DNA from: Falsirhodobacter halotolerans
GTDB lineage: Bacteria; Pseudomonadota; Alphaproteobacteria; Rhodobacterales; Rhodobacteraceae
Reading direction: 5' to 3'
Length of the DNA: 64,000 nt
NCBI RefSeq assembly: GCF_022899245.1
Contig: NZ_JALJAZ010000001.1
Span: 1,643,501 to 1,707,500 of the forward strand
The notes under the pieces: model-generated
Seen by the model: only the letters and a program-made list of their open reading frames with translations
What the model was told of the DNA's origin: nothing
The model's database searches: none
Translations under genes and position numbers: made by a program
In this document: positions 37,278 to 62,635 of the stretch, piece by piece
Layout: the number at the start of each line of letters is the position of its first letter
Numbering within the stretch: the stretch's first letter is position 1

Positions 37278-39647
37278 TCACTGTATCAACCGGGCTAAAA
37301 TCGCGCTGCTGATCGTCGAAGGCTTTGGCAGGTCAGGCCAGTTGCGATCCAAAGCTGCTTTCATCCCGAAGGCATCCGCACGACGAAGACGGGGAAGTTC
37401 GTCCCACGTCACCGGCACCGCCACAGGGGCACCGGGTCGGGCGCGCACGGAGAAAGGGGCGATTGCGGTGGCCCCTCGTTCATTGCGCAACCAGTCGATG
37501 AATATGCGGCCCCTGCGTTTGGCCTTTGACATCGTGGCGGTGAAGCGATCGGGAGCGCGGTCGGACATGAGGGTCGCGATCAGCTGCGACAGGGTTCTAA
37601 CCGTGTCCCAGCCGACGGTGCGACGCAGAGGAACAATCACATGGATGCCTTTTCCGCCAGACAACATCGGCCATGACGCAAGGCCAACGCTTTCCAGAAC
37701 CTCTCGCACCTCCAGAGCCCCGCGTCGGGTGGTTGCAAAGCCCAGCCCCTCGTCCGGGTCCAGATCGAAGACCATCCGTTCCGGACGGTCCAAGCGATCG
37801 GACCGCGCCCCCCATGGGTGAAACTCCACCGTGCCCATCTGCACGGCCCCCACGAGTCCGGCCGCGTCCGTGATGCGGATATACGGCTCGTTGTCGATAT
37901 TGACGTGGCGCACCGATGTGGGAAATCCTTTGCCCGCATGTTTCTGAAAGAAGCGTTCGCCCTCCAGTCCCTCGGGCAGTCGCAAGAGAGAGCACGGGCG
38001 ATCCGCCAATGTCGGAAGGATGCGGTCGGCCATCGCCTCATAGTATCGGGCCAGATCGAGCTTGGTCATTTTCGGTTTGAGGAACACCACGCGGTTGGCG
38101 TTGCTGATACCGATCCCTGCAATTTGGGGGCGGTCGCTTTGCTTCAGGCCCACCTCCGTGGCGGGGTCCATCGCCACCTCTTTCGGTGGCTTGTCTTCGC
38201 GCAGCCCAACGAACCGTGCATGCCGCAGAAGACCGTCGGCCGTGCGTTCGGCATAGGCGATTTCGGCTACCAGACGAGGCTCCACCCATTTCGCCGCCAC
38301 CGACGTCTGCAAGGGTGGCTTGCGGCGCGGGATGAAGGCCGCGAGCATTTCATCTTGCATGGCGGCGTTGAACCCGGTTCCCACCTTGCCCCGATACCGC
38401 AGTTCGCCGGCCTCCATTGTTGCCAGCAGCAAAGACGAAAGCGCCCGACCGCGTTTTTCGGACGGCTGATACCCGACGATCACGAACTCGGCCCGATGGG
38501 TGCATTTCGTCTTTTGCCAATCTGATGATCGCCCGCCGCGATAAGGGGCGGCGCGACGTTTGGAGATGATCCCTTCACCTCCCGCCGCGCAGACCGCGTC
38601 CCGCGCGGCGTCGCCGTCGAGGTTGATCAGCGGCGACAGGCGCACAAACCCCTGCGGTGCGACATCGGCGAACAGGTTTTCCAGTGCTCGGCGACGGTCG
38701 GTCAGGGGATGGCCGGACATGTCCATTCCGTCCAACGCCAGCAGGTCGAATGCGTAGAACAGGAAAGGTCCGCCCGATTTGATGGCCGCCTGCAAGGCCG
38801 AAAACCCCTGAAGCCCCGCCCCTGCCACGATCTCGCCGTCGATCAGGGCGCTGTCGCAGGACAGCCGCGCCAAAACCGGCGCGAGCTCGGCAAACCGCTT
38901 TGTCCAGTCCTGCCCGGACCGCGTCCGGATGACGACCCCGCCTTTGCCAATCGCGATCTGCGCGCGATAGCCGTCGTGCTTGACCTCATGCCACCAGCCA
39001 TCGCCCTCCGGAGGGGTGCCGACCAGCTGCGCCAGTTGCGGCGCGCGAAACTTCGGGACAGGGGCTTTGCGCGATGGCAAAGCCTGCGGCGGCGCCCCTT
39101 CGGCAATCTGCGCCACGGTGCGGTGGCTGGAGACGCTGCGGTCAAATTGCAGGTGGCGACCGGCATCGGCGTCCCGCTCCTTTATCATCAGCCAGTTTTC
39201 CCGACCGCGATCCGCAGGCTTGCCCTTCATGCGCACAAGCGACCACCCGCCCGTCGCCCTTTGCCCATGCAGCCGGAAATGCAATCGGCCTTGAGCCAAG
39301 CCCTCGGCCACATCATGCAGCGGCTGCCACCACCCCAGATCCCACAACATGACCGTGCCGGCGCCATATTGGCCCTTCGGGATCGTCCCTTCCCATGTCA
39401 GATAATCGAGGGGATGATCTTCCGTCCGAACCGCCAAACGTTTGTCGGCGGGATTTGTCGATGGCCCCCGAGTGACAGCCCAAGACAGCAGAACCCCCTC
39501 CCACTCCAGACGCAGGTCCCAGTGCAGGCGTGTGGCGTCATGCATCTGCACCGAATATCGCAAGGCCAGTCCACGTCCCGTCCCCCCTTGCGGCTCGGTC
39601 GTTCGGGCAAAATCCCGCTTGGAACGGTAGGTGCGAAGAGCGTCCAT
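37278..39647 (-). CDS. ligD: ATP-dependent DNA ligase D (NHEJ ligase)
   Basis: LigD seals double-strand breaks in bacterial non-homologous end joining. The 789-residue protein has three domains: a 3'-phosphoesterase at about residues 25-165 (HDATRLHWDLRLEWEG), an ATP ligase at about 200-480 with the adenylated lysine K223 in EVKHDGYR, and a primase/polymerase at about 510-789 with metal-binding FDLDPDEGL. Its start overlaps the ku stop by one base (TGATG), so the two proteins are made together. The order PE-LIG-POL is a common bacterial variant. Confidence 0.95.
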   Translation of the reverse strand: MDALRTYRSKRDFARTTEPQGGTGRGLALRYSVQMHDATRLHWDLRLEWEGVLLSWAVTRGPSTNPADKRLAVRTEDHPLDYLTWEGTIPKGQYGAGTVMLWDLGWWQPLHDVAEGLAQGRLHFRLHGQRATGGWSLVRMKGKPADRGRENWLMIKERDADAGRHLQFDRSVSSHRTVAQIAEGAPPQALPSRKAPVPKFRAPQLAQLVGTPPEGDGWWHEVKHDGYRAQIAIGKGGVVIRTRSGQDWTKRFAELAPVLARLSCDSALIDGEIVAGAGLQGFSALQAAIKSGGPFLFYAFDLLALDGMDMSGHPLTDRRRALENLFADVAPQGFVRLSPLINLDGDAARDAVCAAGGEGIISKRRAAPYRGGRSSDWQKTKCTHRAEFVIVGYQPSEKRGRALSSLLLATMEAGELRYRGKVGTGFNAAMQDEMLAAFIPRRKPPLQTSVAAKWVEPRLVAEIAYAERTADGLLRHARFVGLREDKPPKEVAMDPATEVGLKQSDRPQIAGIGISNANRVVFLKPKMTKLDLARYYEAMADRILPTLADRPCSLLRLPEGLEGERFFQKHAGKGFPTSVRHVNIDNEPYIRITDAAGLVGAVQMGTVEFHPWGARSDRLDRPERMVFDLDPDEGLGFATTRRGALEVREVLESVGLASWPMLSGGKGIHVIVPLRRTVGWDTVRTLSQLIATLMSDRAPDRFTATMSKAKRRGRIFIDWLRNERGATAIAPFSVRARPGAPVAVPVTWDELPRLRRADAFGMKAALDRNWPDLPKPSTISSAILARLIQ

Positions 39648-40492
39648 CAGGCGGATCGTTTCGCCTTGGCGGTCTTGGAAGACGGTTTGTTCCGACCGCT
39701 CCCGGTAGACCCAAGGCTCTGCTTCAGCGCTTCCATCAGATCGACCACATTGCCGCCTTTGGCCTTCGCGTCCTCATCCCCGGTCATGGCGCGTGGGGTT
39801 TTGCGGTTTTTGCGCTTGGCGGCGATCAAGGCGCGCAAGGCTTTATCATAGTGGTCTATGAAGGCCGCCGCGTCGAACGGAGCGGATTTTCGTTCGATAA
39901 GCTGTGTCGCCACGGCCAACAGTTCCTTGTCCGCAGGCCCGTCTTCGATGCCGGAAAACAGCGGATCGGCCGACCGAATTTCGTCGGCGTAATGCAATGT
40001 CTCCATCAGCAGCCCGTCGCCGCAAGGCCGGATGGAGCACAGATATTCCCGCCCGCGCATCGTCAACTGCCCCAGACCCACCTTTCCCGCCTTGCGCATG
40101 GCATCGCGCACAACGCGGTAGGCATCCTCGGCCAGATCGTCGGTCGGCACGACGTAATAGGGTTTGTCGTAATACAGCGGCGAAATCTCGGACGCGTCGA
40201 CGAACTGCACGAGCTCGAACGTCTTCTTGGTTTCCAGTCGAATATCGTCGATTTCCGCCGGATCAAGCAGCAGGTATTCGTCCTTGCTTGTCTCGTAACC
40301 TTTGAGGATATCCTCGGTTTTTACCCGCCCGACACCCGCCACCGTCTTCTGATACCGGACGGGCTTTCCGGTGGGCCGGTGGATCTGCCGAAATGCGACC
40401 CGCGCCCCGGATTTCGTCGCCGGATGCACCTCTACCCCGATCGACACGAGGGAGATCCGAAGCTGACCCGTCCACACCGCACGCGATGCCAT
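39647..40492 (-). CDS. ku: Non-homologous end joining protein Ku
   Basis: Bacterial Ku forms a ring on DNA ends and recruits LigD. The 281-residue protein shows the Ku core: MASRAVWTGQLRISLVSIGVE at the N-terminus, VRYQKTVAGVGRVKTEDILKGYE, and LYYDKPYYVVP. The C-terminal tail is lysine/serine-rich, as usual. CAGGAGAG precedes the ATG at 40,492. It is the first gene of the ku-ligD pair. The operon protects non-replicating cells, in line with the neighbouring catalase. Confidence 0.95.
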   Translation of the reverse strand: MASRAVWTGQLRISLVSIGVEVHPATKSGARVAFRQIHRPTGKPVRYQKTVAGVGRVKTEDILKGYETSKDEYLLLDPAEIDDIRLETKKTFELVQFVDASEISPLYYDKPYYVVPTDDLAEDAYRVVRDAMRKAGKVGLGQLTMRGREYLCSIRPCGDGLLMETLHYADEIRSADPLFSGIEDGPADKELLAVATQLIERKSAPFDAAAFIDHYDKALRALIAAKRKNRKTPRAMTGDEDAKAKGGNVVDLMEALKQSLGSTGSGRNKPSSKTAKAKRSA

Positions 40493-41707: not shown

Positions 41708-42673
41708 ATGACACCTGATATCGTCATTGCCGTTCCGATGCGGAACGAAGCGCGGTCCGTGCCGCGTCTGTTGCGCAGCCTTGGCCGCGCGGCACGGCGG
41801 GTGGAGGGACGTGTCACCGTTCTTGCCCTTGCCAACGATTGCGAGGACGGCACCGCCGACGCCCTACGCCGCGCGGCGATCCCTTTTTTGGATGTGGTTA
41901 TCGAAGAACTCCGTCTGCCCCCCGACCTGAGTTCGGCGGGCTATGCCCGTCGTCTGTGTATGGACCATGCCGCCGCTCTGGCACCGGAAGGCGTGATGCT
42001 GACCACCGATGCCGATGCCGTCGTCACGCCTGGGTGGATTGCCGCCGCCCTGACCGCGTTGGACAACGGCGCCGATCTGGTCTGCGGCACGATTGCCGTT
42101 TGCCGCCACGCCATTCCCCCGTCCGTATCAAACGACCGGATCGTGCGGGCGGAGCGTGCCTATGCCGACCTGCTGCACGAAGTGCGGTATCGTCTGGACC
42201 TGCGCGCGGGACGTCAGCCCCCGACTGGACGGCCGCATTACATGGAATCAGGCGCGGCTTTGGCCTTGCGCACCCGCACCTATCACGCCTTGGGCGGTCT
42301 GCCGCATGTATCCACAAGCGAGGATCGCGCTTTGGTCCATCGCGCCGGTGAGGTCGGCCTGCGCGTCACATATTGCCCGCAAATGCGGACCTTCGTGTCG
42401 GCGCGGATGGACGGGCGGGCGGAAGACGGTATGGCCGCCTGCCTGCGCACCCGCATGACCGTGGCCGATCCACCCGCCGACCAGTCTATGCTGTCCGTCG
42501 CCACCTTGGCCGACCTGTGGGCGGCGAGCCTGTCCGACCCCACCCGCCCCTTTCCCGACCGCAGCCATCCGTTCGGGGCGCGGCTGCGTGCATCCGATCT
42601 GGAACGCATGTTGCCCGAATTGCAGCGTTTCGTGACCGAGGTTGTCCATGCCGGAATCGATCATGCCGCATAG
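41708..42673 (+). CDS. GT2-family glycosyltransferase of a NodS/PIG-L cluster
   Basis: The 321-residue protein has a GT-A fold of family 2: nucleotide-binding start IVIAVPMRNEARSVPRLL, a DxD motif in TTDADAVVTPGW, and the acceptor region ALAL..GGLPHVSTSEDRALVHR with the ED pair. No membrane segment is obvious, so it is cytosolic. The sugar is unknown. It is the first of four tightly overlapping genes (next start lies inside it), so a shared pathway is very likely. Confidence 0.85.
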   Translation: MTPDIVIAVPMRNEARSVPRLLRSLGRAARRVEGRVTVLALANDCEDGTADALRRAAIPFLDVVIEELRLPPDLSSAGYARRLCMDHAAALAPEGVMLTTDADAVVTPGWIAAALTALDNGADLVCGTIAVCRHAIPPSVSNDRIVRAERAYADLLHEVRYRLDLRAGRQPPTGRPHYMESGAALALRTRTYHALGGLPHVSTSEDRALVHRAGEVGLRVTYCPQMRTFVSARMDGRAEDGMAACLRTRMTVADPPADQSMLSVATLADLWAASLSDPTRPFPDRSHPFGARLRASDLERMLPELQRFVTEVVHAGIDHAA

Positions 42674-43709
42674 CATCCCCGCCACAATGGCGCGTCTGAC
42701 CGCCCTACCCGCCGACGGGGCCGACGGACCTTCCGGCCCGTCGCTGGTGGGCGCGTTGCGCGACGGGGGGGCCTTGGCGTGGGCGGCGGGTATGGCGCAT
42801 GAACCCTCCGACCCCCTCGCCTTGGCCGAGGCGCTGGCCGCCATCGGGGCTGAAAGCCTGTCCGCTGGTCGTTTGTTTGAAGGCCATGTCAACGCGCTGA
42901 AACTGATCCGGCTGTATGGCGACGGGGCCGATCTGGACGCGGCCCGTCGCGGCGCATTGTTCGGCATCTGGGGCGCGGACGGGCCAAATCCGGTGCGGAT
43001 ATGTGGCGACCACCTGCACGGCACGAAATTGTTCGCCAGCGGGGCCGACATGGTGGACCGGATCATCGTCACCGCCCGAACCGAGGCTGGCCCTCAACTT
43101 TTGCTTCTTCGGCGCGAAATGCTAAGGGATCGGCTGTTCCCCGAGGAATGGCAGGTGTCGGGCATGTGCGCCACCGCCTCGGGACGCTGCGATCTGGACG
43201 GGGTTCCGCTGGATCAGGCCACCCCCCTCGGCGTCCCCGGCGATTACCTGCAAGAGCCGTATTTCCACGGTGGGGTCTGGCGTTATGCCGCCGTCCAGAT
43301 GGGGGCGATGCGGCGGTTGACGCAGGCCACAATCCGGCAGCTTCGGGCGCGGGGCCAGACCGAGGCTCCGCTGCAAGCCCTTCGCCTGCGCTACATGCTG
43401 ACCGCCTGCGAAACCGCCCGCCTGTGGGTTCAGCGCGCGGCCATCCGCTGCGAAGCCGCTGCGGCCATGCCGGAGGCGGCGGACGATGCGATCCTTGCGC
43501 GGCTGGTGGTCGCGGATCTGGCCGAGGAGGTGCTGCGCCACATGGACCACGCCTTAGGTGCTGCGTCGTTCCTGCGGGGGCACGAGGTGGAACGTATCCG
43601 CCGCGATCTCGGCTTCTATCTGCGGCAGGCCAATCCCGACGGGCTGTCGCAGACGGCGATCCAACGTCTGGTGTCGGACCCCGCACGGTTGGACGGGTGG
43701 CTGTCATGA
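42648..43709 (+). CDS. Acyl-CoA-dehydrogenase-like flavoprotein of the NodS/PIG-L cluster
   Basis: The 353-residue protein has the course of an acyl-CoA dehydrogenase fold: a helical N-terminal domain (LAEALAAIGAESLSAGRLFEGHVNALKLI), a beta domain around ALFGIWGADGPNPVRICGD and KLFASGADMVDRIIVTA, and a C-terminal helical bundle (LRLRYMLTACETARLWVQRAA). The catalytic base is not clear, so it may be an oxidoreductase or monooxygenase-like relative. ATG at 42,648 overlaps the glycosyltransferase gene by 26 bases; 42,663 is an alternative. Confidence 0.7.
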   Translation: MPESIMPHSIPATMARLTALPADGADGPSGPSLVGALRDGGALAWAAGMAHEPSDPLALAEALAAIGAESLSAGRLFEGHVNALKLIRLYGDGADLDAARRGALFGIWGADGPNPVRICGDHLHGTKLFASGADMVDRIIVTARTEAGPQLLLLRREMLRDRLFPEEWQVSGMCATASGRCDLDGVPLDQATPLGVPGDYLQEPYFHGGVWRYAAVQMGAMRRLTQATIRQLRARGQTEAPLQALRLRYMLTACETARLWVQRAAIRCEAAAAMPEAADDAILARLVVADLAEEVLRHMDHALGAASFLRGHEVERIRRDLGFYLRQANPDGLSQTAIQRLVSDPARLDGWLS

Positions 43710-44371
43710 CCGCGACGCTGGACGATCTTCTGGCGGGCCGGACCTCCATCACCGTGATCGCGCCGCATCCCGATGACGAAACGCTGGGCTGCGGTCGGTT
43801 GCTGGCGGATGCGCGGGCCGCCGGTATTGCCTGCACCGTGGTGTGCGTGACCGACGGGGCGCGGTCGCATCCGAACTCCCGCCGCTATCCGCCCGAAAAG
43901 CTGGCGGCTCTGCGGCGGGCGGAACTGGAGATGGCGGTGCAGAAGCTCGGCTCGGGCATCGGGGTCGATCATCTCGGCTATCCCGATTGCGCGGCCCCGC
44001 AGGACGGTCCCGCCGTGGATCGCATATGCTTGCTTATGGCCCCCGCCACGCTCCTGCTGTCGCCGTGGAGGGGCGATCCGCATGTCGATCATCAAAGCTG
44101 CGCCACGCTTGCCGCCCATGTGACAAAGCGCATGGGCTGCCGCCACTTGGCCTATCCCATCTGGGGGCGGGTGCGCCCTGTGGCCTCGCCGCCGACGGAC
44201 ATCCTCCGCTATCACGGCAGCGCCGAAGCCGCCGCCCGCAAGCGCGACGCTTTGGCCTGCCATTGCAGCCAGATGACCGGCCTGATCGACGACGACCCCG
44301 AAGGGTTCGTCATGGATGCCGATCTGCAGGCCATGTTCCTGACCGAACCGGAGCTGTTCCATGCCCCGTGA
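43706..44371 (+). CDS. PIG-L family N-deacetylase
   Basis: The 221-residue protein carries the zinc motif APHPDDETLGCG at its N-terminus and a later histidine in DPHVDHQSC, the set used by PIG-L/LmbE deacetylases to remove N-acetyl groups from amino sugars. ATG at 43,706 overlaps the previous stop by four bases. In this cluster it probably deacetylates a GlcNAc unit placed by the glycosyltransferase; this is inferred from order and family. Confidence 0.87.
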   Translation: MTATLDDLLAGRTSITVIAPHPDDETLGCGRLLADARAAGIACTVVCVTDGARSHPNSRRYPPEKLAALRRAELEMAVQKLGSGIGVDHLGYPDCAAPQDGPAVDRICLLMAPATLLLSPWRGDPHVDHQSCATLAAHVTKRMGCRHLAYPIWGRVRPVASPPTDILRYHGSAEAAARKRDALACHCSQMTGLIDDDPEGFVMDADLQAMFLTEPELFHAP

Positions 44372-44915
44372 GGATACTCTGCGCCATCTGGCAGCACTCT
44401 ATGACCGCAGCGACGATCCGTGGGATCACCGCACATCCCCCACCGAGCAGGCGAAGTATGCGGCGACCCTGCAGGCCATCGGGCCGGGACCGTTCCGTCA
44501 CGCGGTGGAGGTGGGGTGCGGCAACGGCACGCTTCTTGCCCGCCTTGCACCCCGCTGCCAGCGCCTGACCGGGATCGACTGCATCCCCCGCGCCGCTGAC
44601 GCCGCGCGAAACGCCGTGTCGGATTTTCCACAGGTGGAGGTGATCGACGGTGCCGCCCCCAAGGCGTTGCAGGGTCTTTCGCCCGATCTTCTGGTCCTGT
44701 CCGAGGTGCTGTATTTCCTGACGCCGGAGGAGATCGGCCAACTGTCCGCATGGATCCGCCAGACCCCTGTGCGCACGGTGGCGGTCAATTGGCTTGGCCC
44801 GACGGACGAAGATTTGGACGGCACCACCGCGCTGGACTGCCTGACGCGTTGGCTGGGCGCGCCGGATACGACGCATGTGGCCGAAACCTACCGGATCGAT
44901 GTGTTCGGCATCTGA
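44361..44915 (+). CDS. NodS-like SAM-dependent methyltransferase
   Basis: The 184-residue protein has the class I methyltransferase motif VEVGCGNGTLLARLA (motif I), a later acidic loop GIDCIPRAADAAR, and LLVLSEVLYFLTPEE (motif IV region). The start PREDTLRHLAALYDRSDDPWDH resembles NodS, which N-methylates deacetylated chitooligosaccharides in Nod factor synthesis. Paired with a PIG-L deacetylase, N-methylation of the freed amine is a reasonable guess. It overlaps the deacetylase by 11 bases. Confidence 0.82.
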   Translation: MPREDTLRHLAALYDRSDDPWDHRTSPTEQAKYAATLQAIGPGPFRHAVEVGCGNGTLLARLAPRCQRLTGIDCIPRAADAARNAVSDFPQVEVIDGAAPKALQGLSPDLLVLSEVLYFLTPEEIGQLSAWIRQTPVRTVAVNWLGPTDEDLDGTTALDCLTRWLGAPDTTHVAETYRIDVFGI

Positions 44916-45229: not shown

Positions 45230-45859
45230 TCAAACGGAGGATGACAGCTCCGCGTTCAGCATTTTGGCCAGCGAGCGACGCCCGAAAAAGCCGTCGATTT
45301 GCCGGGCCTTGAATGTGGTGGGACGCAGCCGCACAATACCCCTGTTGCAGGTTTCCAAGACATAGTCCCGCTCGGCACCATACAGGGAGGCCCGACTGGC
45401 TGTTACCGTTACCACCGTCACCTTTACGCCTACAAAATCCATATGGCAGTCGAGATCCGGATTTTCTTCACACGCCCGGTCGATCAGGATGCTGAAGCGC
45501 CCGATATCCTTTTCTTCCCCGCTCACGAGCGGCCCGACGTTCGTCGCAATGCGCGCATCACCATCCTCATCATCCCGATGGCGTTCGTTGCGCTCGGGAA
45601 TAATGGCGCGAAAACTTCGGCCGTCGGCAATACGGACGTCTAGGATGATGTCTAAAAGGTAGACAGGCTCAAGACCCAGATTTGTTACGAAGCAGTGAGA
45701 TTTCATGCCACGGCCAGCGCCAGAGGTGATCAGAATAGATGGCTGATGCTGGCGCCGGTAACTCGACAAAAAGACGTTCAGGTAAACAATCCAGATCATG
45801 GCGGTTACCCCCGCCATGACAGCGGAAATAAGGGGGGCGTATTGGAGGAATGAGGTCAC
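45230..45859 (-). CDS. Membrane-anchored hypothetical protein
   Basis: The 209-residue protein has one hydrophobic segment at the N-terminus (LISAVMAGVTAMIWIVYLNVFL), a basic stretch SSYRRQH, then a soluble domain of beta-like strands (GMKSHCFVTNLGLEPVYLLDIILD). Its layout suggests an inner-membrane anchor with a cytoplasmic domain; its role is unknown. A GTG at 45,859 is taken as the start since it begins directly before the membrane segment; an ATG at 45,985 gives an unconserved extension. Confidence 0.6.
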   Translation of the reverse strand: MTSFLQYAPLISAVMAGVTAMIWIVYLNVFLSSYRRQHQPSILITSGAGRGMKSHCFVTNLGLEPVYLLDIILDVRIADGRSFRAIIPERNERHRDDEDGDARIATNVGPLVSGEEKDIGRFSILIDRACEENPDLDCHMDFVGVKVTVVTVTASRASLYGAERDYVLETCNRGIVRLRPTTFKARQIDGFFGRRSLAKMLNAELSSSV

Positions 45860-46348
45860 GGGGATCAATCTATCTTGGCGATCTGACACGCGGGTGGAGA
45901 CGAAGGTGAACCTGAAAGACGCGCTATCTGTTCCAAAAGCCGCGCGACCCCGCCCTTTGTGCTGCCCTGTAAACTTCCCCCGCATATGGACCGCTTCTTG
46001 CTAGGTTACCTGTATCAAGGGGCTAAATGCATTCCACGCAACCTCAAATATGCATTTTACGCGGCCCATCTTCCTGTGCCTCATGCTTTGCCTTCATGCA
46101 GAAGAGCCCCTACTGAAGCCTTTGAAGGCCCTGTTTGACCTATCGGAACGGCGGGCGTGTCGGCTTATGGGGGCGGATCGCAAGATGGTCCGCTACTAGG
46201 GAAATCGTGCGCCGGACACGATGCGATTGCTGGTCACATCGTCGTCGTCGGTCTCGGCGACGCTTCAGCAGCACGAGCTTTACAGCTAACGTGCGAAGTA
46301 TGACGGCAATCCTGTAGACCGCTACCAATGATGGCACAATCGTATCTT
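45860..46348. other. Intergenic region with IS3 relic
   Basis: This about 490-bp stretch carries a fragment of an IS3-family transposase (listed separately) and otherwise no gene. Several short open frames do not resemble proteins. GC content is lower than in the surrounding core genes, which fits decayed mobile DNA. Confidence 0.45.
46113..46200 (+). pseudogene. Relic of an IS3-family transposase OrfB (N-terminal part)
   Basis: The frame reads LFDLSERRACRLMGADRKMVRY followed directly by a stop; the SERRAC..LG..R..VRY pattern is the conserved N-terminus of IS3-family OrfB. A few more residues with weak similarity follow to about 46,286. There is no start codon and no catalytic core, so it is a decayed fragment. 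Confidence 0.65.
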
Positions 46349-47866
46349 TCAGGCAGGGTCATTTGCGGCCCCGAGTGCCTCCAACCCCATAAGAAGCGCG
46401 GCTTTGATGGGAGTCGCCAGAACCTCCTCCGGCTCGCCTTCGAAGTTGAATTCGCGGGCCACAGGCGGCTCGCCCCGGAGGCAGGATGCAATGCAGACAT
46501 ATCCGGCCGGTTTGCCCTGATCGGATCCCGGTCCGGCAACTCCGGTGACCGCCGGAGCTAAGCCTGCCTCCGGCGCGGCTTCCAATGCACCGACGGCCAT
46601 CTGCCGGGCAACCTCCGGGTCATACACTGTTCTTGCCGCAATAAGCGCCTCCGACACGCCGAGAGCGGCTGTCTTCAATGACGCGCGGTAGGTGACGAAG
46701 CTACCTTCCAAAGTATCCGAACTGTCCGGGACTGCAGCCAAACTTGACGCCAGAAGCCCGCCCGTGCATGATTCAGATGTCACGAGCCGCATGCCGCGCT
46801 TGTTCAAGCATCGGCACAGATCCGCAGCAGAGACCTCTGTGTCCGTTGGAATATCAACTTTCGCACGATCGGTTCGCAAGACCGGCGGTCGGAAAAACCG
46901 TTCATCAATCATGTCCAGAAGGGAGAACCGATCGGTTAATGGATGATCAAGACGGATGGGGTTCACCCGCTTATACCAAGTGGTCTGTAGCCGATGTAGC
47001 ACTGACCCCAAGACTATCTGAGCATGCTGATCTCTTTCCATTCCGAGGATGGTAACCAGATGTTGGGTGGTCACGCGGGGATCCTTGGTCAGGACCTTGC
47101 CAAGCGAAAAGAGAACGATGTCCCATTCCAGATATGTTGCCCCGATCTGCGCCTCATCGCCCGCGCCGATGCCAAGCCCGTCGGTGGGTGCTGCCCGCCA
47201 TGTTTTCTCGGGAACGCCTGCTCGACGGGCAAGCCACGGAATTTCCCAAGACTTGATCAGGCCCTGAAGCGGAGCCAAATCACCAACATCACCATGTAGC
47301 GTCCAGAAGCCGGCGCCAAGTTCGGAGAAATTGTCCGTGCTGGCTACGATACCGCCGACGCGATGCGCTTGATCGTAGAGCGCCATCATTCGCAGCCGTG
47401 CGCGCAGGTTGCCCCGGCGTGTTCGTGCTGGGCCTTCATCGGAAGACACAAGAGAATGATCCAATCCACCCAATGACGCGACCATTTCGTCAAACCGGGT
47501 GCTCAGATCAAGATGGTTATGTTCCACCCCAAGGGCCGCGCACGCCTCGATGCCCCGCTCGGTCTCTTCTACATTCTGGTAGATCGGCAAAGTGAACCCA
47601 ATGACCCGCCAACCGGCCTTCTTGAACAGCGCAGCAGTCAAGGCGGAATCCACCCCGCCAGACATGCCAAGCACGGCGGTGCCAACTTCCGCCTGATCGC
47701 GGTAGTCCGATAGATCCTGACAGATTTTTTCAAGGACCGTCTCGAGATCCTCTTCGGGAAGGAACACCCCCTCCTCGATCTGCTTCTCCCGTTGCTCCTT
47801 GAACCAGAGGGTAGGCCCCTCGCCCCCCGCCTGACGCGCGAGGTTCAGAATATCCAAGTAAAGCAT
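46349..47866 (-). CDS. nadE: NAD synthetase fused to a CinA/PncC amidase domain
   Basis: The N-terminal part (about residues 1-330 of 505) is an NH3-dependent NAD synthetase: the PP-loop LGMSGGVDSALTAALF at 67-81, ASTDNFSELGAGFWT, and an acidic TDGLGIGAGDEAQ loop. No glutaminase domain is present. The C-terminal part (about 345-500) is a CinA_C/PncC domain with TSESCTGGLL at 363-372, TYRASLKTAALGV and AVTGVAGPGSDQ at 439-450. PncC deamidates NMN to nicotinate mononucleotide. The fusion would join two steps of NAD recycling. GGAGG precedes the ATG at 47,866; longer starts lack one. Confidence 0.85.
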   Translation of the reverse strand: MLYLDILNLARQAGGEGPTLWFKEQREKQIEEGVFLPEEDLETVLEKICQDLSDYRDQAEVGTAVLGMSGGVDSALTAALFKKAGWRVIGFTLPIYQNVEETERGIEACAALGVEHNHLDLSTRFDEMVASLGGLDHSLVSSDEGPARTRRGNLRARLRMMALYDQAHRVGGIVASTDNFSELGAGFWTLHGDVGDLAPLQGLIKSWEIPWLARRAGVPEKTWRAAPTDGLGIGAGDEAQIGATYLEWDIVLFSLGKVLTKDPRVTTQHLVTILGMERDQHAQIVLGSVLHRLQTTWYKRVNPIRLDHPLTDRFSLLDMIDERFFRPPVLRTDRAKVDIPTDTEVSAADLCRCLNKRGMRLVTSESCTGGLLASSLAAVPDSSDTLEGSFVTYRASLKTAALGVSEALIAARTVYDPEVARQMAVGALEAAPEAGLAPAVTGVAGPGSDQGKPAGYVCIASCLRGEPPVAREFNFEGEPEEVLATPIKAALLMGLEALGAANDPA

Positions 47867-47939: not shown

Positions 47940-48779
47940 GGTCAGGACCCATTGAAGTCATCGGATTGAGCTGATTCATTTGCCTCGAAGGAGGCGACTG
48001 ATGAGTGACCTTTTTCTGGCTGAGTGACGCTCAGATGGCGCGTCTGCGCCCTTACTTTCCAAAGTCTCACGGCCGTCCTCGCGTGGATGACCGGCGCGTG
48101 TTGAGCGGGATAATCTTCGTCAATCGTAACGGCTTGCGGTGGCGGGACGCCCCTCGTGAATACGGCCCGGCGAAGACACTCTACAATCGATGGAAGCGAT
48201 GGGGCGACATGGGCGTCTTTTCCCGGATCATGGCGGGCCTTTCTGCCGAAGCTGCCACACCGAAGACGGTGATGATCGACGCCACCTATCTGAAAGCCCA
48301 TCGCACGGCCACCAGCCTTGGGGTGAAAAAGGGGGGCGCGGGCGGCTGATCGGCCGCACGAAAGGCGGTATGAACACCAAGCTGCACGCCGTCACCGATG
48401 CCGAGGGACGACCGATCCGGCTCTTCATGACGGCGGGCCAGGTCAGCGATTATACCGGTGCGGCGGCTTTGATGGGCAGCCTGCCCGAGGCGGACTGGCT
48501 GCTGGCAGATCGCGGCTATGACGCGGACTGGTTCCGCGAGGCCCTGCAGAACAAGGGCATCGCGCCCTGCATTCCCGGCCGTAAGTCTCGCGGCAAGTCC
48601 GTCAAATATGACAAGCGAAGATACAAGCGCCGCAACCGCATCGAGATCATGTTCGGCCGGCTCAAGGACTGGAGACGTGTGGCGACCCGATACGACAGAT
48701 CGCCGAAAGTCTACCTCTCCGCCGTCGCCCTTGCAGCAACCGTCATGTTCTGGCTGTGACTGAGGAACGAGTCCTGACC
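47940..48779. mobile_element. IS5-family insertion sequence, copy 2 (about 840 bp)
   Basis: Inverted ends GGTCAGGAC (left, 47940-47948) and GTCCTGACC (right, 48771-48779) are flanked by CTAG on both sides (47936-47939 and 48780-48783), which fits the C(T/A)AG target duplication of IS5. It encodes a two-phase transposase on the plus strand. It differs clearly from the copy at 36 kb. It separates the nadE-pncC gene from the ars operon. Confidence 0.85.
48005..48759 (+). CDS. IS5-family transposase made by -1 frameshifting
   Basis: Phase one (48,005-48,349, GTG start) has FFWLSDAQMARLRPYFP, NGLRWRDAP and the first catalytic Asp in VMIDATYLKAH. Phase two runs to 48,759 with RTKGGMNTKLHAV, LLADRGYDADWFR (second Asp), and RNRIEIMFGRLKDWRR with the catalytic Glu. 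The phases join at a slippery A5G6 run (48326-48336), and the total length fits a -1 shift. Both parts look intact. Confidence 0.85.
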
Positions 48780-48906: not shown

Positions 48907-49263
48907 ATGGAAGAGGAACGCGCGCTTGCCGCTTTTGCGGCGCTGTCGCAGGAGACGCGGCTCCGCATCGTGCGGCTGCTGATACAGGCTGGACCGGACG
49001 GCATGGCGGCGGGGGCCATTGGGGAGGCCATCGGCGCGACCACCTCGCGCCTGTCCTTCCATCTGACGCATCTGGAACATGCCGGGTTGATCCGGTCGCG
49101 CCGCGATGGGCGGTTCATCATCTACGCCGCGCTCTACCCGTCCTTCTCCGCTTTGATCGAGTTCCTGATGCGCGACTGCTGTCAAGGCCATCCCGACATC
49201 TGCGCTCCCGCGATGGCCGCACTGGAATGCGATTGCGAACCTGCTGCCACCGAAAGGGCCTGA
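48907..49263 (+). CDS. arsR: ArsR-family arsenic-responsive repressor
   Basis: The 118-residue protein is a winged-helix repressor (FAALSQETRLRIVRLLIQAG, then GATTSRLSFHLTHLEHAGLI, RRDGRFIIYAA). Cysteines near the C-terminus, in DCCQGHPDIC and ECDCEP, are the likely As(III) site; this C-terminal placement differs from the classical ELCVC motif in helix 3 of E. coli ArsR. It is the first gene of the ars operon and probably controls it. Confidence 0.9.
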   Translation: MEEERALAAFAALSQETRLRIVRLLIQAGPDGMAAGAIGEAIGATTSRLSFHLTHLEHAGLIRSRRDGRFIIYAALYPSFSALIEFLMRDCCQGHPDICAPAMAALECDCEPAATERA

Positions 49264-49265
49264 CC

Positions 49266-49691
49266 ATGGACGTCATCATCTACCATAACCCCGCCTGCGG
49301 CACGTCACGCAACACGCTGGCGATGATCCGCAACGCAGGCATCGAGCCGCATGTGGTCGAGTATCTGAAGACACCACCCTCGCGGGTGCTGCTGGTGCAG
49401 CTCATCGAACGGATGGAGATCACACCGCGCGCCCTGCTGCGGGAGAAGGTAACGCCCTATGCGGAGCTTGGTTTGGATGACCAGGCGCTGTCCGATGAGG
49501 CCCTGATCGACGCAATGATGGCGCATCCGATCCTCATCAACCGGCCCATCGTCGTCAGCCCGAAGGGCGTTCGGCTCTGCCGCCCCTCCGAGGCCGTGCT
49601 GGATCTCCTGCCGCCGCAGCAGGCCGCTTTTGCCAAGGAAGACGGCGAGCAAGTCGTGGACGAGCACAGCAACCGCACCCGTTCCGCCTGA
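49266..49691 (+). CDS. arsC: Arsenate reductase, glutaredoxin-linked type
   Basis: The enzyme reduces arsenate to arsenite with glutathione and glutaredoxin. The 141-residue protein has the catalytic cysteine in [14 protein letters not shown] (Cys11), and the arginine region [22 protein letters not shown] that binds the oxyanion. The length fits the ArsC family. It starts two bases after arsR in the operon. Confidence 0.94.
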
Positions 49692-49704
49692 CCCGGAGAA
49701 GATC

Positions 49705-50781
49705 ATGAGCATGTCGCAACCGACTCGTCGGCTGTCCTTCCTCGACCGTTATCTGACGCTGTGGATCTTTGCCGCCATGGCGCTCGGCATTCTGTTGGGC
49801 ACGGTGTTCACCGGGCTGCCTGAGGCGTTGGGTGCCATGTCGGTCGGCTCCACCAACATTCCCATCGCCATCGGCCTGATCCTGATGATGTATCCGCCCC
49901 TGGCCAAGGTCCGCTACGAGGACCTGCCGCAGGTGTTCACCGACACGCGCGTGCTGCTGCTGTCGCTGGTGCAGAACTGGATCATCGGGCCGGTCCTGAT
50001 GTTCGCCCTTGCGGTGATCTTCCTGCGCGACAGCCCCGAATACATGACCGGCCTGATCCTGATCGGTCTGGCCCGCTGCATCGCCATGGTGCTGGTCTGG
50101 AACCAGCTTGCGCGCGGGGACAGCCAGTATGTCGCGGGGCTGGTGGCCTTCAATTCTATCTTCCAGATCCTGTTCTTCTCCACCTATGCCTGGCTGTTCC
50201 TGACCGTCCTGCCGCCCCTGTTCGGGTTGGAGGGCAGCGTGATCGACGTGGGGTTCTGGACGGTGACCGAGGCGGTGCTGATCTATCTGGGCCTGCCGTT
50301 CATCGCAGGCTATCTGACGCGCCGCGTCCTGATCGCGCGGCGGGGCGAGGGGTGGTATCAGGACAGGTTCCTGCCGAAGATCGGCCCGCTGACGCTGGTG
50401 GCGCTGCTGTTCACAATCGTCGCGATGTTCAGTCTCAAGGGTGGCGATGTGCTGCGTCTGCCGCTGGATGCGTTGCGGATCGCCGTGCCGCTGGTGATCT
50501 ACTTCGCCGTGCAGTTCATCGTCAGCTTCGCGATGGGCCGCTGGATCGCGAAGGACTATCCGCGCACCACCGCCATCGCCTTCACGGCGGCGGGCAACAA
50601 CTTCGAGCTGGCGATTGCCGTCGCTATCGCGGCCTATGGTCTGGCCTCGCCCGTGGCTTTCGCCGCCGTTATCGGCCCGCTGGTCGAGGTGCCGGTGCTG
50701 ATCCTGCTGGTGAACGTGGCCTTGCGCCTTGGCCGTCAGTGGTTTCCCCACGATGCCGCGCTGAAGGAGGGCCGCGCATGA
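49705..50781 (+). CDS. acr3: Arsenite efflux permease ACR3
   Basis: The 358-residue inner-membrane protein has about ten hydrophobic segments, starting [19 protein letters not shown], and the family hallmark [18 protein letters not shown] with the functional cysteine. It exports arsenite by proton antiport. It overlaps arsH by four bases. The cargo order arsR-arsC-acr3-arsH is common in alphaproteobacteria. Confidence 0.94.
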
Positions 50782-51467
50782 TCCCTGACCTGCCGAACCT
50801 GTCGCCCGAGGCCCTGCGCCTGCCGCAGATCGACGGCCCTCCGCCGCGCATCCTGCTGCTGTATGGCTCGCTCCGCGAACGGTCCTACAGCCGGTTCGCC
50901 ACGCTGGAAGCTGAACGCCTCCTGCGCCACTTCGGCTGCGAGACGCGGGTATTTCATGCAGACGGCCTGCCGCTGCCGGACGATGCCGAGGCCGATCATC
51001 CCAAGGTGCAGGAGCTGCGCGATCTGTGCCTCTGGTCCGAGGGACAGGTCTGGACCAGCCCCGAACGACACGGCGCGATGACCGGCGTGATGAAGTCGCA
51101 GATCGACTGGATACCGCTGTCGATGGGCGCGATCCGCCCCACGCAGGGGCGGACGCTGGCCGTCATGCAGGTGTCGGGCGGATCGCAGAGCTTCAACGCG
51201 CTGAACCAGATGCGCATCCTGGGCCGCTGGATGCGGATGGTGACGATCCCGAACCAGTCCTCCGTCGCCAAGGCGTATCAGGAGTTCGAGGAGGACGGCC
51301 GCATGAAGCCGTCGCCTTACTATGACCGGATCGTGGACGTGATGGAGGAGCTGGTGCGCTTCACCCTCCTGACGCGCGACCGGTCCGACCTGATCGACCG
51401 CTACAGCGAGCGCAAGGAAGCGGCCGAGAAAGTGCAGGAGCGCCTGAATCTGAAGGACGCGACCTGA
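50778..51467 (+). CDS. arsH: Organoarsenical NADPH-dependent FMN oxidoreductase ArsH
   Basis: The 229-residue flavodoxin-like protein binds FMN through [14 protein letters not shown] and has the [21 protein letters not shown] segment typical of ArsH. ArsH oxidises trivalent methylated or aromatic arsenicals to less toxic pentavalent forms. It is fourth in the ars operon, and its stop overlaps the start of the MFS gene. Confidence 0.93.
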
Positions 51468-52657
51468 TGCAGACGGCGCGGCGCTGGCCGGTCATTTGCG
51501 CCCTTGGCATCGTTCAGATATTCGCCTGGGGCAGCAGCTACTACCTGATGGCGGTGCTGGCCGCGCCCATTGTTGCCGATACTGGATGGCCGCTACCGTG
51601 GGTGGTCGGGGCTATCTCGGTGGCCTTGGCCTGCGCCGGAATGGTGTCGCCAAAGGTGGGTAACGCCATTGCTCGCTTCGGCGGACGGCCCGTGCTGGCC
51701 GTGGGCTGCATCCTTCTGGCATTGGGCCTCACCCTCGTTGCGACGGCTCTGAACCTTCCTGCCTTCTATGCTGGATGGTGCATCATGGGTCTGGGGATGG
51801 GCGCAGGGCTTTACGATCCGGCCTTTGCCACGCTTGGCCGTCTCTACAAGCAGGACGCGCGGGCGGCGATCACGGCCCTGACTCTGTGGGGCGGGTTCGC
51901 CAGCACGGTGTGCTGGCCCTTGTCCTCCTGGCTGTTGGATCAGGTCGGCTGGCGCGGAACGGCGGCGACCTATGCCGTGATCCACCTGCTGATCTGTCTG
52001 CCCCTGATCTTCGGCCTGATCCCGAAGGAGTCGGAGGTCCAGCCCGAGGCGGATCAGCGCGCGGTAGGCTCCGCGTCCTTGGTCGGCCATGAGCGCATGG
52101 CGTTCCTGATCATGGCCTCGATCCTCATCACCGCCGGGCTGGCCGTCACCCTGATCTCGGTGCATCTGCTGACGCTTCTTCAAGCGCAGGGTCTGTCTCT
52201 TTCGGAGGCCGTCGCCATCGGTGCGCTGCTGGGACCGGCGCAGGTCGCGGCGCGTGTCGTGGAAATGGCGGGGCGCGGACGACACCATCCGATCTGGACG
52301 CTGATCGTCGCAACTGGCAGTGTCGCAACCGGTCTTGTGCTTCTGGCGCTGGAAATGGACGTGCCGGGTCTGGCTGTGATCCTCTATGGCGCAGGCAATG
52401 GCATCTTCTCCATCGCACGCGGCTCGCTGCCCTTGGCGCTGTTCGGGGCTGATCGCTACCCGGTCGTGATGGGCCGTCTGGCGCGGCCCTCGCTTCTGGC
52501 GCAGGCCGCCGCCCCCATGCTGGGCGGAGCGCTGATCGCAGGCATGGGAGCGGAGGGCGCTTTGACGGTCGTTGCCTGCCTCGGGATGGCGAACCTCGTG
52601 CTGGCAATGACGATGTGGGGTATGATCCGACAGCGTGCGGAGCGGCCAACGGCTTAA
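51467..52657 (+). CDS. MFS transporter of the ars operon
   Basis: The 396-residue protein has about twelve hydrophobic segments (first: VICALGIVQIFAWGSSYYLMAV) of the major facilitator superfamily, with a GRPVLAVG-type loop between helices 2 and 3. It starts at the last base of the arsH stop, so it belongs to the operon. MFS exporters of arsenicals (for example ArsK, ArsJ) are known in such operons; which this is cannot be decided. No GAPDH gene for an ArsJ pathway is next to it. Confidence 0.8.
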   Translation: MQTARRWPVICALGIVQIFAWGSSYYLMAVLAAPIVADTGWPLPWVVGAISVALACAGMVSPKVGNAIARFGGRPVLAVGCILLALGLTLVATALNLPAFYAGWCIMGLGMGAGLYDPAFATLGRLYKQDARAAITALTLWGGFASTVCWPLSSWLLDQVGWRGTAATYAVIHLLICLPLIFGLIPKESEVQPEADQRAVGSASLVGHERMAFLIMASILITAGLAVTLISVHLLTLLQAQGLSLSEAVAIGALLGPAQVAARVVEMAGRGRHHPIWTLIVATGSVATGLVLLALEMDVPGLAVILYGAGNGIFSIARGSLPLALFGADRYPVVMGRLARPSLLAQAAAPMLGGALIAGMGAEGALTVVACLGMANLVLAMTMWGMIRQRAERPTA

Positions 52658-58203: not shown

Positions 58204-58953
58204 TCAGTCCCGGGGCTTTGATAGACGACGATGCGCCTCGGCCACCACACCTGCGGGAAGATGTTCGCCGGCGGCGGCCTGAAGCTTGTTCAGGACGCCC
58301 GGTGTCACCTGCTCACGGCCGGCCATCAGGGCCTCGTATCCGTGCCGAGCAACCCATGCGGGATCGTCCTTCTTCATGTCCCCGACGATGGTGTTATCCA
58401 TTCCGGCACGACGAAAGAATTCGGTCTCCGTCGCGCCGGGCATCAGGCATGTGACGGTCACTCCGGTCCCTTTCAGCTCGTGCGCCAAGGCGCCCGCAAA
58501 CGAATTTATGAACGCCTTCGTTGCATTGTAAACGGCCTGGTAGGTTCCCGGCATGAACCCGGCGATCGATCCGGTCAGGAGGATCCGTCCCTCCCCGCGC
58601 GCGACCATGGCATTCGCAAGGGGATGCACCAGGCGGAGGGGGCTCATGACGTTGGTCAGGACGGTTCGCTCGATCCCGTCCAGCGGTTGCTCCAGAAAGC
58701 CATGACCAAGTCCCGTTCCCGCATTCACAAGCAGCAGGTCGACCTCTCTCTCCGCAATGGTCGCGAGGAGAGCCTCATTACCCTCAGGCGTGGCGAGATC
58801 GGCTTCCACAGCCTCGCCGTTCAGCTCGGTCGCGACCTGATGAATGGCCGGTTCGTTTGCCAAAACGATAACGTCATGCCCCTCGGCGGCACAGACGCGC
58901 GCGAGTTCCAGGCCGATGCCGGTGGATGCGCCGGTAATGACGGCAAGGGTCAT
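58204..58953 (-). CDS. Short-chain dehydrogenase/reductase
   Basis: The 249-residue protein has the NAD(P)-binding TGASTGIG at residues 8-15, NAG in LLVNAGTG, the catalytic Ser in LTGSIAGF and YxxxK in YNATKAF. These are classical SDR signatures. The substrate is not known. It overlaps the zinc alcohol dehydrogenase gene by four bases and lies in the same operon. Confidence 0.9.
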
Positions 58954-60119
58954 GGATTCAACACCACCTTGATACAGCCATCGGCCTTATCCCGGAATGT
59001 CTTGTAAAGCTCCGGCCCGTCTTCCAGCCGGCCTTTATGGGTGATGACGAAGGAGGGATCGATCTTCCCCTCTTCGATCAATCCCAACAGTTTGGGCAGG
59101 TAGCGCTGCACGGGCGTTTGCGCCATCCGGAAGGTGATGCCACGATTAATGGCCGAACCCATCGGCATCTTATCCAGCAGTCCCGCATAAATGCCAACAA
59201 TCGATACGGTCCCGAAATTGCGACAGCACATGATCGCCTGACGCAGCACATGCGGACGATCCGTGCCCATGAACGTCGCGACCTTGATCCGGTCGATCAC
59301 CGCCATGAACCCCGAGGCGGTGTCCGGCTCGGTCCCGACCGCATCGATGCACGCGTCCGCCCCGCGCCCCTCGGTGCGGCTCATGATCTCGTCATAGACA
59401 TCCACATCGGCGAAATCGAGCACCTCGGCCCCTGCGGCGGCGGCAAGCGCAAGCCGCTCGGGAACCGTATCGATCGCGATCACCCGTTCCGCGCCCAGAA
59501 GAAAGGCCGACCGGATCGCCATCTGTCCCACCGGTCCGCAGCCCCAGATTGCCACCGTTTCGCCCCCCTTTAGATCGCAGAACTCGGCGGCCATGTATCC
59601 GGTTGGAAAAATGTCGGACAGAAACAGCGCCTGATCGTCGGTAAGGTTCGACGGCACCTTGATATGCCCGACATCGGCGTAAGGGACCCGAAGGTATTCG
59701 GCCTGCCCACCGGAATATCCCCCCAGAAGATGGGAATAGCCGAACAGGCCCGCCGGCGAATTGCCCCAGAGGGTCTTTGCCTTGTCGAAGTCGCGGTTCG
59801 ACCGCTCGCACCCCGAGAAGAACCCGCGCTGGCAGAAGAAGCATTCGCCGCAGGCGATGGTGAAGGGGATCACGACCCGATCACCGACCTTGAGCTTGCT
59901 TGTCTCCGCACCCACCTCGACGACTTCGCCCATCGTTTCATGGCCGATGACGTCGCCATGCTCCATGCAGGCCATCACACCGTCATAGATATGCAGGTCC
60001 GATCCGCAGATCGCGCAGGACGTCACCTGAATGATCGCGTCTTTCGCATCCTCGATCTGCGGATCGGGAACTGTTTCGTAGCGCATGTCGCTTTTGCCGT
60101 GCCAGGTCAGTGCTTTCAT
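58950..60119 (-). CDS. Zinc-dependent alcohol dehydrogenase (formaldehyde dehydrogenase-like)
   Basis: The 389-residue MDR-family protein has the catalytic zinc Cys in [26 protein letters not shown], a structural-zinc lobe with cysteines in [17 protein letters not shown], and the coenzyme fold [12 protein letters not shown]. The long insert is as in glutathione-independent formaldehyde dehydrogenase-like enzymes seen in stress clusters; the substrate is unproven. It lies ten bases after the neighbouring SDR stop. Confidence 0.9.
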
Positions 60120-60129
60120 GGCGATCTCC

Positions 60130-60987
60130 TCAAATGATGGGTTGTCCGCCGGTGATCGCTATCGTCGCGCCGGAGGTGTAGCTGGAGCGGGGATCGGCCA
60201 GCATCACATAGGCCGATGCGAGTTCGGCCGGCTGCCCTGCCCGCTTGAATGGGACCTGCTTGCCAAAATTCGCAACGCTGTCCGCCGGCATCGTGGACGG
60301 AATCAGCGGCGTCCAGATCGGACCCGGCGCCACGCAGTTTGCACGGATGCCTTGCTCCGCCAGTCCTTGAGCCAGTCCGGCGGTGAAATTCTGGATCGCC
60401 CCTTTGGTCGTTGCATAAGCCAACAGGCCGGGATTCGGTTTGTCAGCATTGATCGACGTCGTGTTGATGATCGACGAACCCGGTTTCATATGTGGCACGG
60501 CAGCCTTGGTTAGGTAGAACATGGCGTGGATGTTCACCGCAAACGTCAGCTCCCACTCGTGATCAGGAATATCCGTGATGCTGTCAAACGTAGCTTGATG
60601 GGCCGCGTTGTTTACGAGGATGTCGAGGCCGCCTAGCTCTGCCATTGCCGTTTCTATTATAAGGCGACAATGCGAAGGGTCCTGTATATCGCCTGCCACC
60701 AGCACCGCCTTCCGCCCTGCATCGCGCACGAGCTGCGCGGTATCTTCGGCATCGGCGTCTTCGTTCAGATACGAAATAAGGACATCCGCACCTTCACGCG
60801 CATAGGCAATGGCAACCGCGCGGCCAATGCCGCTGTCTCCGCCGGTGATAATTGCTTTCAATCCGGCAAGACGATCCGAGCCGGTGTAGCTATCCTCACC
60901 ATGATCGGGGCGCGGCTCCATGGCATCGGTGACACCTGGCATGTCCTGCTGCTGCTCGGTTTGTGGGGGTTTCGGATAGTCGGTCAT
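60130..60987 (-). CDS. Short-chain dehydrogenase with N-terminal extension (YghA/GSP39-like)
   Basis: The 285-residue SDR has an extra N-terminal part of about 40 residues ([24 protein letters not shown]), then [31 protein letters not shown] and YATTKGA. The Pro/Gln-rich lead segment is typical of YghA and Bacillus general-stress protein 39 relatives. It heads the operon SDR-ADH-SDR-isochorismatase. The substrate is unknown. Confidence 0.88.
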
Positions 60988-61259
60988 CGGTATCTCCGAT
61001 TCTGTATTTTAAATGCTTATGCAGCCGAGAAGGGGCGTCGCCGAACCCTTATCACCATCACAGTGCGATGCTGATAACCCGGCCATCGCGCCCGGGATCA
61101 AAGGCAACCATGGTCGGGCCCAAGCTGGCGAAAGTCAGGATTCCGCAAAACTTCACCAGCCGGCCTAAATTCCACGTCAGCGCTTTCTCAGCGCCATCTT
61201 GATCCGATAGATGACGTCAGACAAACTAACGGTGATGTCGCGATCCACGGCTGTTCGTG

Positions 61260-62081
61260 TCACATCTGTTCGGATTGGGCACCGCTATTCGGCTTCGCCT
61301 TTCCAAGGTCAGGCACCTGCGACGAGGGCTCCAGAACACCCGTGGTGAATTGGCCCTTTCCGTCAATGGATGGGCCATCCGACCACCGTCCCGAAGCCGG
61401 CGCGCTGCCATCCGCCTGAAATCCGAGATAGGCGTAGCTGAACTTGGTGTTCTCTTCGGCCTGCGGGTGGCTGTTGGGAATGGGAAACGCGGCCGTTCCG
61501 CCCAGCTCCTCGAGCGCGGCCATCCACTGGTTCTGGTGCATGGTGTCACGCGCGATCAGATACTGAAGCATGTCCTTCATGCCCGTATCGTCGGTCATGT
61601 TGTAAAGCCTAACCGCAAGGGTGCGACCCGTGGATTCCGCGGCGATATTGGCAGTCATGTCGGCGGCGATATTCCCGCTGGCATAGATGTGGGACATGTC
61701 GAACGGCACGCCGTCACTGTCCACCGGCATGGCCGACAGCCCCGACGACAATAGGTTTTTCAGGTTCAGTCCGCCCATGACCGCGCCGACTGCTGCGTCC
61801 TTCGCCATCTGCTCCTTGAGGCTGAGGGGAGCGCCCTCAAGGTTCATGGCCACCGCCGTTGCCAGCATCTCGATATGGCCAAGCTCCTCTGCGGCGGTGT
61901 TCATGAGGAGATCGCGGAACTTCGGATTTCCCCGCGCGCCGCAGGCCTGGAAGAAATACTGCATGGCCACGCGGATTTCGCCTTCAACGCCCCCGATCGC
62001 CTGCTGCAACGCGCGAGCAAACAATGGGTTCGGCGCATCGACGCGCACAGGGTATTGCAGTTTATTGTCGGTATAGAACAT
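61260..62081 (-). CDS. Manganese catalase, second copy
   Basis: The 273-residue protein starts MFYTDNKLQYPVRVD, typical of the shorter Mn-catalase group, and has AAEELGHIEMLATAVAM (ExxH) plus a second helix pair around DTMHQNQWMAALEELGG. It differs clearly from the copy at 40.6 kb. It follows two ferritin-like DUF892 genes on the same strand and is probably transcribed with them. Confidence 0.92.
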   Translation of the reverse strand: MFYTDNKLQYPVRVDAPNPLFARALQQAIGGVEGEIRVAMQYFFQACGARGNPKFRDLLMNTAAEELGHIEMLATAVAMNLEGAPLSLKEQMAKDAAVGAVMGGLNLKNLLSSGLSAMPVDSDGVPFDMSHIYASGNIAADMTANIAAESTGRTLAVRLYNMTDDTGMKDMLQYLIARDTMHQNQWMAALEELGGTAAFPIPNSHPQAEENTKFSYAYLGFQADGSAPASGRWSDGPSIDGKGQFTTGVLEPSSQVPDLGKAKPNSGAQSEQM

Positions 62082-62120
62082 AGGAATTTCCTGTCTTTGC
62101 CGTATGCAAATAGGGGCAGA

Positions 62121-62618: not shown

Positions 62619-62635
62619 TTGGGTCTCCTTCGGTA

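Follow-up and report, generated by a model that had tools for sequence, protein, structure and literature searches.

A rare fusion of NAD synthetase with a PncC-derived domain in Alphaproteobacteria, often found near stress-related genes

The window analysed here is a stretch of 64,000 nucleotides from Falsirhodobacter halotolerans. On its minus strand, at 46349–47866, lies an open reading frame of 505 aa, which starts with an ATG at 47866; alternative in-frame ATGs upstream would give 509 or 523 aa, and the plus strand of the same interval contains many stops. The frame encodes two domains. The first (aa 45–278, 47033–47734, minus strand) is an NAD_synthase domain, PF02540 with E 3.8e-36 and 124.9 bits (cut-off 21), also matched by nadE TIGR00552 with 126.4 bits (cut-off 63.65). 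The second (aa 348–493, 46388–46825, minus strand) is a CinA/PncC domain, PF02464 with E 6.1e-36 and 123.8 bits (cut-off 23.5), also matched by PncC_domain TIGR00199 with 87.1 bits (cut-off 68.9). An AlphaFold monomer, predicted from a 16-row alignment, has two confident domains and a low-confidence stretch at 329–338 (mean pLDDT 82.1, pTM 0.64). In Foldseek comparisons the predicted N-terminal half resembled the solved NadEs 2e18, 1xng and 3fiu (target TM 0.80–0.86), and the C-terminal half the CinA structures 2a9s (0.88) and 5kol (0.85). An earlier note, which had placed NadE and CinA/PncC in one 505-residue frame here, is thus borne out by Pfam, NCBIfam, AlphaFold and Foldseek; its coordinates were right, the strand is minus, and the motifs it quoted are present.

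Just upstream of the fusion, on the plus strand, is an IS4/5-type transposase (48005–48759; PF13340 with E 4.3e-23 for 48005–48349, and a second overlapping frame to 48759), which possibly separates the fusion of the window from its former promoter. At 46234–46362, on the minus strand, is a probable remnant of a Pyr_redox (thioredoxin-reductase-like) gene, of which only the first ~15 residues (MTLPERYDCAIIGSG) resemble the intact neighbour of the relatives. Genes for LigD, Ku, two Mn catalases, two DUF892 proteins, an SDR and an alcohol dehydrogenase lie within 20 kb of the fusion in the window. LigD and Ku form an end-joining pair at 37278–40492 (minus strand). The alcohol dehydrogenase, the SDR, one Mn catalase and the two DUF892 genes lie together at 58950–63151 (minus strand), and the DUF892 gene at 62636–63151 has an EcfG-type promoter motif, of the kind discussed below, at -49. 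A protein without a Pfam match, at 45230–45985, has such a motif 66 nt upstream of 45868, a possible start. From the translations we take 48907–52657 to be an arsenic cluster (ArsR, ArsC, ACR3, ArsH, MFS), and 41708–44915 presumably encodes a glycosyltransferase, an acyl-CoA dehydrogenase, PIG-L and a methyltransferase; PIG-L is the one gene of that row that was run against a profile library.

The two-domain gene was found at 12 loci, in the window and in 11 other genomes (ten intact, one frameshifted), always with the same domain order; one of the scans behind this number, of genome contigs, works from short peptide patterns and gives a lower bound. The other carriers are R. xinxiangensis (81% identical), P. 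mutanolyticus, P. yeei, Rhizobium albus, another five members of the family to which F. halotolerans belongs, and two genomes of a second family in the class, a family represented by those two genomes only. In the R. albus copy (L011 5968–7514) a frameshift splits the NadE half, and an EcfG-type motif is still present at -46. The same type of NadE without the PncC domain was found at six loci, three in Paracoccus and three in the family genomes G073, G200 and G038; a more distant NadE-only match in G280 (37% identity) was left out of the counts. The NadE-only gene of G073 adjoins what we take to be a biotin gene cluster (L046, approximately 3620–8853).

The fusion is rare. With the genome of the window itself counted in each sample, there were 6 fused and 3 NadE-only genes in 394 genomes of the family (E 1e-20, best matches listed first), 3 fused genes in 385 genomes of the class and 1 in 398 genomes of the phylum (both at E 1e-45), and a wide occurrence was thus not seen in the class and phylum samples at this threshold. 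In a plasmid collection of 72,556 records, in which relatives of the genome of the window may be missing, no single place covered 80% of the protein, and the best two records matched the NadE half only. Among the papers listed in the literature searches we noticed no earlier description of a NadE-PncC fusion.

Both halves of the fusion look conserved by selection. Between the window and R. xinxiangensis dN/dS (Nei-Gojobori) was 0.074 for the NadE part and 0.094 for the PncC part, and the seven pairs that allowed a comparison of both halves gave 0.07–0.35 and 0.09–0.49, respectively; these values are rough, since dS exceeds 1 in several pairs, window against R. xinxiangensis included. The earlier note had named a frameshift-type error as one way in which two separate genes could appear joined. 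We reject such an assembly artefact, and regard it as having practically no chance of being true, since the order recurs in eleven other genomes (the one frameshift being in the NadE part) and dN/dS is below 0.5 for both halves in all seven pairs.

A tree of the NadE domain was built from 17 rows, without R. albus, and rooted at the midpoint, with G200 forming a long branch. It grouped the fused rows with the three NadE-only Paracoccus in one clade (97/97). Inside this clade the Paracoccus trio stands beside the fused Paracoccus, and the remaining three NadE-only rows fall outside. In the tree of the PncC domain the 12 fused domains formed a single clade (98/96) on a long stem, apart from 30 standalone rows; the bootstrap of this tree had not settled, and the tool warned that long branches meet. 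The simplest reading of the trees is one fusion event, followed by a single loss of the PncC half. As three Paracoccus genomes keep the NadE half alone, this half can persist without its partner.

Aligned to its relatives and to solved NadEs, the NadE half retains the PP-loop, the STDNFSE block, the KS lysine and PTDGL...DEAQ.G..Y. The SGGxDS loop (SGGVDS, aa 69–74, 47645–47662, minus strand) and the substrate-side residues are invariant in the 16 aligned relatives and align with those of the solved NadEs; a one-residue deletion shortens the GDGxxD loop to GDVGD. Compared to the single-domain, ammonia-dependent NadE, type N in the part of PMC3376133 available, the PP-loop, STDNxxE, KS/KT, PT.GL...DE...G..Y and the fold are common to both, whereas the fusion adds the CinA/PncC domain, has the shorter GDVGD in place of GDGxxD, and has ~70 aa between the two Pfam matches, a part of which is kept in the NadE-only relatives. 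The glutamine-dependent NAD synthetase (type F in the same excerpt of PMC3376133) also joins a synthetase to an amide-hydrolysing domain, but there the partner is a nitrilase-type glutaminase, while in the fusion it is of PncC type and C-terminal.

A search with PF02540 showed that 11 of the 12 fused genomes have a further NadE. The second NadE of P. mutanolyticus (G1118:C1:1028798-1029564) is split between two frames, and the fusion may for this reason be the sole intact NadE of that genome. In G051, which has 7 contigs and is listed as 100% complete, no NadE-type gene was found beyond the fusion; the only two other matches are presumably GMP-synthetase-like and MnmA-like, named from their frames. 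NadD is present in G051, and the fusion, being the sole NadE-type gene found there, therefore probably makes the NAD of this genome. The NadE half is for this reason probably a working NAD synthetase. It is conceivable that the NadE half is instead an NMN synthetase, as in Francisella, so that a regulated cycle would arise from two halves that act on one nucleotide in opposite directions. The best match among solved structures is indeed 3fiu, titled NMN synthetase from Francisella, but ordinary NadEs are nearly as good (82.0 vs 80.0 bits), and G051, with its NadD and no other NadE found, calls for amidation of NaAD. We consider an NMN synthetase very unlikely.

We compared the 12 fused PncC domains to 21 standalone PncCs of the family. 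The ESCT block (aa 365–368, 46763–46774, minus strand), with the nucleophile Ser366 corresponding to Ser31 of AtCinA, is present in all 12 and all 21. The equivalents of Ser31 and Tyr58 and the TG-AGP loop are kept in all fused domains and Lys63 in 11, and the window protein has the catalytic Ser/Lys dyad as well as the tyrosine. The P. yeei copy (L007) has an Arg at the expected catalytic Lys, equivalent to residue 398 of the window protein. Two other blocks are replaced. In place of GAVS(E), of which G, V and S are found in 21/21 standalone proteins, the window protein has TVYDP (aa 413–417, 46616–46630, minus strand), and T-x-Y-(D/H)-P is found in 12/12 fused domains. The GRxxVR block is absent in every fused domain, with L, I or V in place of its second Arg; at this site the window protein has PEEVL (aa 479–483, 46418–46432, minus strand; from alignments, numbered against 2a9s, with a register of +/-1 residue). 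Moreover, an Asp (D449) follows AGP in the 12 fused domains where all 21 standalone proteins have Ser, and the window protein has an Asp at the equivalent of Gly46.

In NMN deamidases GRxxVR contains the Arg that binds the phosphate; by the numbering of 2a9s this R145 is the Arg of the GR pair. Profile-profile alignment places a Pro at this position in the fused domains. A replacement of R145 by Pro is uncertain by one residue, as single-sequence HMMER alignments can shift by one position and a K or R directly follows the Pro in 6 of the 12 copies, two of which also have an Arg just before it. The available part of PMC5384747 reports undetectable activity for the AtCinA mutants S31A, Y58A, K63A and R145A, and a melting point 31 degrees lower for the destabilised R145A. 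The salt bridge of the Arg to the phosphate is described in the accessible portion of PMC4246079, and in lineages described as inactive in an excerpt of PMC3855486 the GA/VVS block and R145 are altered or missing.

The C-terminal half could be a normal NMN deamidase, in which case NMN would be converted to NaMN and ammonia, NadD would make NaAD, and the NadE half would re-use the ammonia, perhaps locally, thereby recycling NAD. The kept Ser, Tyr and Lys equivalents, the TG..AGP loop and the predicted fold, which matches AtCinA, are in line with this reading. However, the GAVS and GRxxVR blocks are lost in 12/12 fused domains, the positions concerned are those changed in the inactive lineages, R145A lost detectable activity in the work cited above, and a separate standalone PncC is already found in 18/18 genomes examined, the best one per genome having a GAVS-type block in 18/18 and GRxxVR in 17/18. 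We therefore regard a normal NMN deamidase as rather unlikely. Two genomes, G596 (L071) and G487 (L079), have a further, very diverged CinA-type protein with ESSAGG or ESSTGG, and without the usual GAVS or GRxxVR.

The word complete, which the earlier note had used for both domains, is thus unfit for the CinA/PncC part, where two conserved blocks of the NMN site have been replaced, and an action of this domain on NMN is not supported in the form given there. The NadE half is probably active. The mechanism proposed in that note is half supported, an NAD synthetase being likely and a canonical NMN deamidase doubtful.

It is also conceivable that the PncC-derived domain is no longer an enzyme, but serves the NadE half as a module for dimerisation or ligand sensing. 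PncC dimers share the active site between subunits according to the part of PMC3855486 available, and for this reason a scaffold role is possible; furthermore, the substrate-binding blocks are lost, the catalytic lysine is an Arg in P. yeei, and one Paracoccus lineage, which branches from within the fused ones, has kept NadE but not this domain. Against this stand the catalytic Ser and Tyr in 12/12 copies and the Lys in 11/12, and the new invariant residues T413, Y415, P417 and D449 in the replaced blocks argue for kept chemistry. A non-enzymatic domain thus appears unlikely. From the pattern of kept and replaced residues we infer an amidase in which the chemistry has been retained and the outer pocket rebuilt, with a changed recognition of the 5' end. 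Compared to the PncC/CinA NMN deamidases (AtCinA 2A9S, E. coli YgaD), the fused domains have in common the fold, ESCT, Tyr58, Lys63 (11/12) and TG-AGP, but differ in the replaced GAVS and GRxxVR blocks (12/12) and form a clade of their own. The two-domain CinA (COG1058/MocF-PncC, as in T. thermophilus, from the accessible portion of PMC4246079) likewise is a bifunctional NAD-salvage protein with a C-terminal PncC domain; its N-terminal partner is an ADP-ribose pyrophosphatase domain, in the fusion it is NadE.

The company of the gene at the other loci is often rich in stress-related functions. We considered 15 clade genomes, the 12 fused ones and the three NadE-only Paracoccus. A DUF892 gene lies within 15 kb in 10 of them and within 3 kb in 7; with 1–6 DUF892 copies per genome, such a proximity is estimated to arise by chance in about 2% per genome, and the independent events are fewer than the genomes, as the set contains three sister species and some short contigs. 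In the three NadE-only genomes outside the clade, DUF892 gave no match at all. A Pyr_redox gene, which we take to be thioredoxin-reductase-like, overlaps the stop of the gene at four loci (L005 and L008–L010), is convergent at L045, and the end of one is seen at L041. At some loci the neighbours include Mn catalase, 4-alpha-glucanotransferase, DUF2243, DUF4142, lipocalin, alcohol dehydrogenase and luciferase-like genes. An RHH regulator and a PHB-depolymerase-type esterase lie beside the fusion of P. mutanolyticus, and the neighbours in G596 presumably belong to ordinary metabolism.

Among the EcfG-dependent genes of Sphingomonas melonis are Ku, 4-alpha-glucanotransferase, catalases, thioredoxin reductase and ferritin-like proteins, and the EcfG motif in this species is GGAAC-N17-20-GTT (both from the part of PMC6599016 available). 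For each gene we chose a start ourselves and scanned the 120 nt before it for GGAAC-N16-20-GTT. The motif was found in 5 of the 12 fused copies (G051, G047, G217, G596 and R. albus), all at -46 to -56. Among 2000 trials with shuffled upstreams, 1812 had no match, 178 had one and 10 had two, which means that ~0.1 matches were expected as compared to the 5 observed. The remaining seven copies (the window, R. xinxiangensis, both fused Paracoccus, G487, G050 and G091) lack the motif within 120 nt upstream. A motif was observed before an upstream gene with which the gene is possibly co-transcribed in the Paracoccus trio (DUF892), G050 (luciferase-like) and G091 (DUF892); in G091 a further gene and a gap of 148 nt lie between the motif-bearing DUF892 gene and the fusion. 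In G487 a divergent DUF892 gene bears the motif. The three NadE-only genes outside the clade have no motif within 120 nt upstream either.

In these stress-rich loci 28 of the 281 genes predicted by our own simple gene finder bear the motif, and a part of the promoter signal thus reflects the neighbourhood. NepR (PF18557) was found in the genome of the window and in 6/6 fused genomes of the family sample, as compared to 188/394 overall, so that about every second genome of the family sample has it in any case, and NepR was not listed for the 3 NadE-only genomes of the family. As PhyR of R. sphaeroides has a specialised role only, according to the available part of PMC5830050, the Rhodobacterales may have a narrower stress control than other orders. 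The link to stress genes and to a candidate stress promoter is the main addition to the earlier note.

In our preferred reading, to which we give about an even chance, the fusion is an accessory bifunctional enzyme linked to the general stress response of Alphaproteobacteria, consisting of an NAD synthetase and a PncC-derived amidase of altered specificity. The N-terminal half would adenylate NaAD with ATP and amidate it with free ammonia to NAD, like single-domain NadEs. The C-terminal half would be a Ser/Lys amidase, most likely still able to hydrolyse a nicotinamide-ribose compound at its amide. With the clamp for the 5'-phosphate and the outer block of the pocket lost, NMN is probably not the substrate; candidates in which the 5' end would be held differently are nicotinamide riboside or a dinucleotide. 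In the motif-bearing copies the EcfG sigma factor would switch on the gene under stress, with the neighbouring DUF892, catalase or reductase genes, and this induction would serve to rebuild the NAD pool. The copy in the window may have lost its stress control, as it has a transposase upstream, no motif was found within 120 nt, and the reductase is a remnant.

A more far-reaching possibility, which we consider improbable, is that the fusion represents a class of self-supplying NAD synthetases. The amidase with its rebuilt 5' pocket would then free ammonia from an unphosphorylated or dinucleotide nicotinamide compound and hand it to the NadE half, and a stressed cell could rebuild NAD from damaged or leaked compounds without glutamine.

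If the preferred reading, of an accessory stress-linked bifunctional enzyme, is true, the amide-adding step and an amide-removing step of pyridine-nucleotide metabolism would be joined in one chain, and the renewal of NAD would be tied to the general stress response. It would also imply that the NMN phosphate clamp has been lost naturally in a PncC-type domain, which would make the substrate specificity of the CinA family directly testable.
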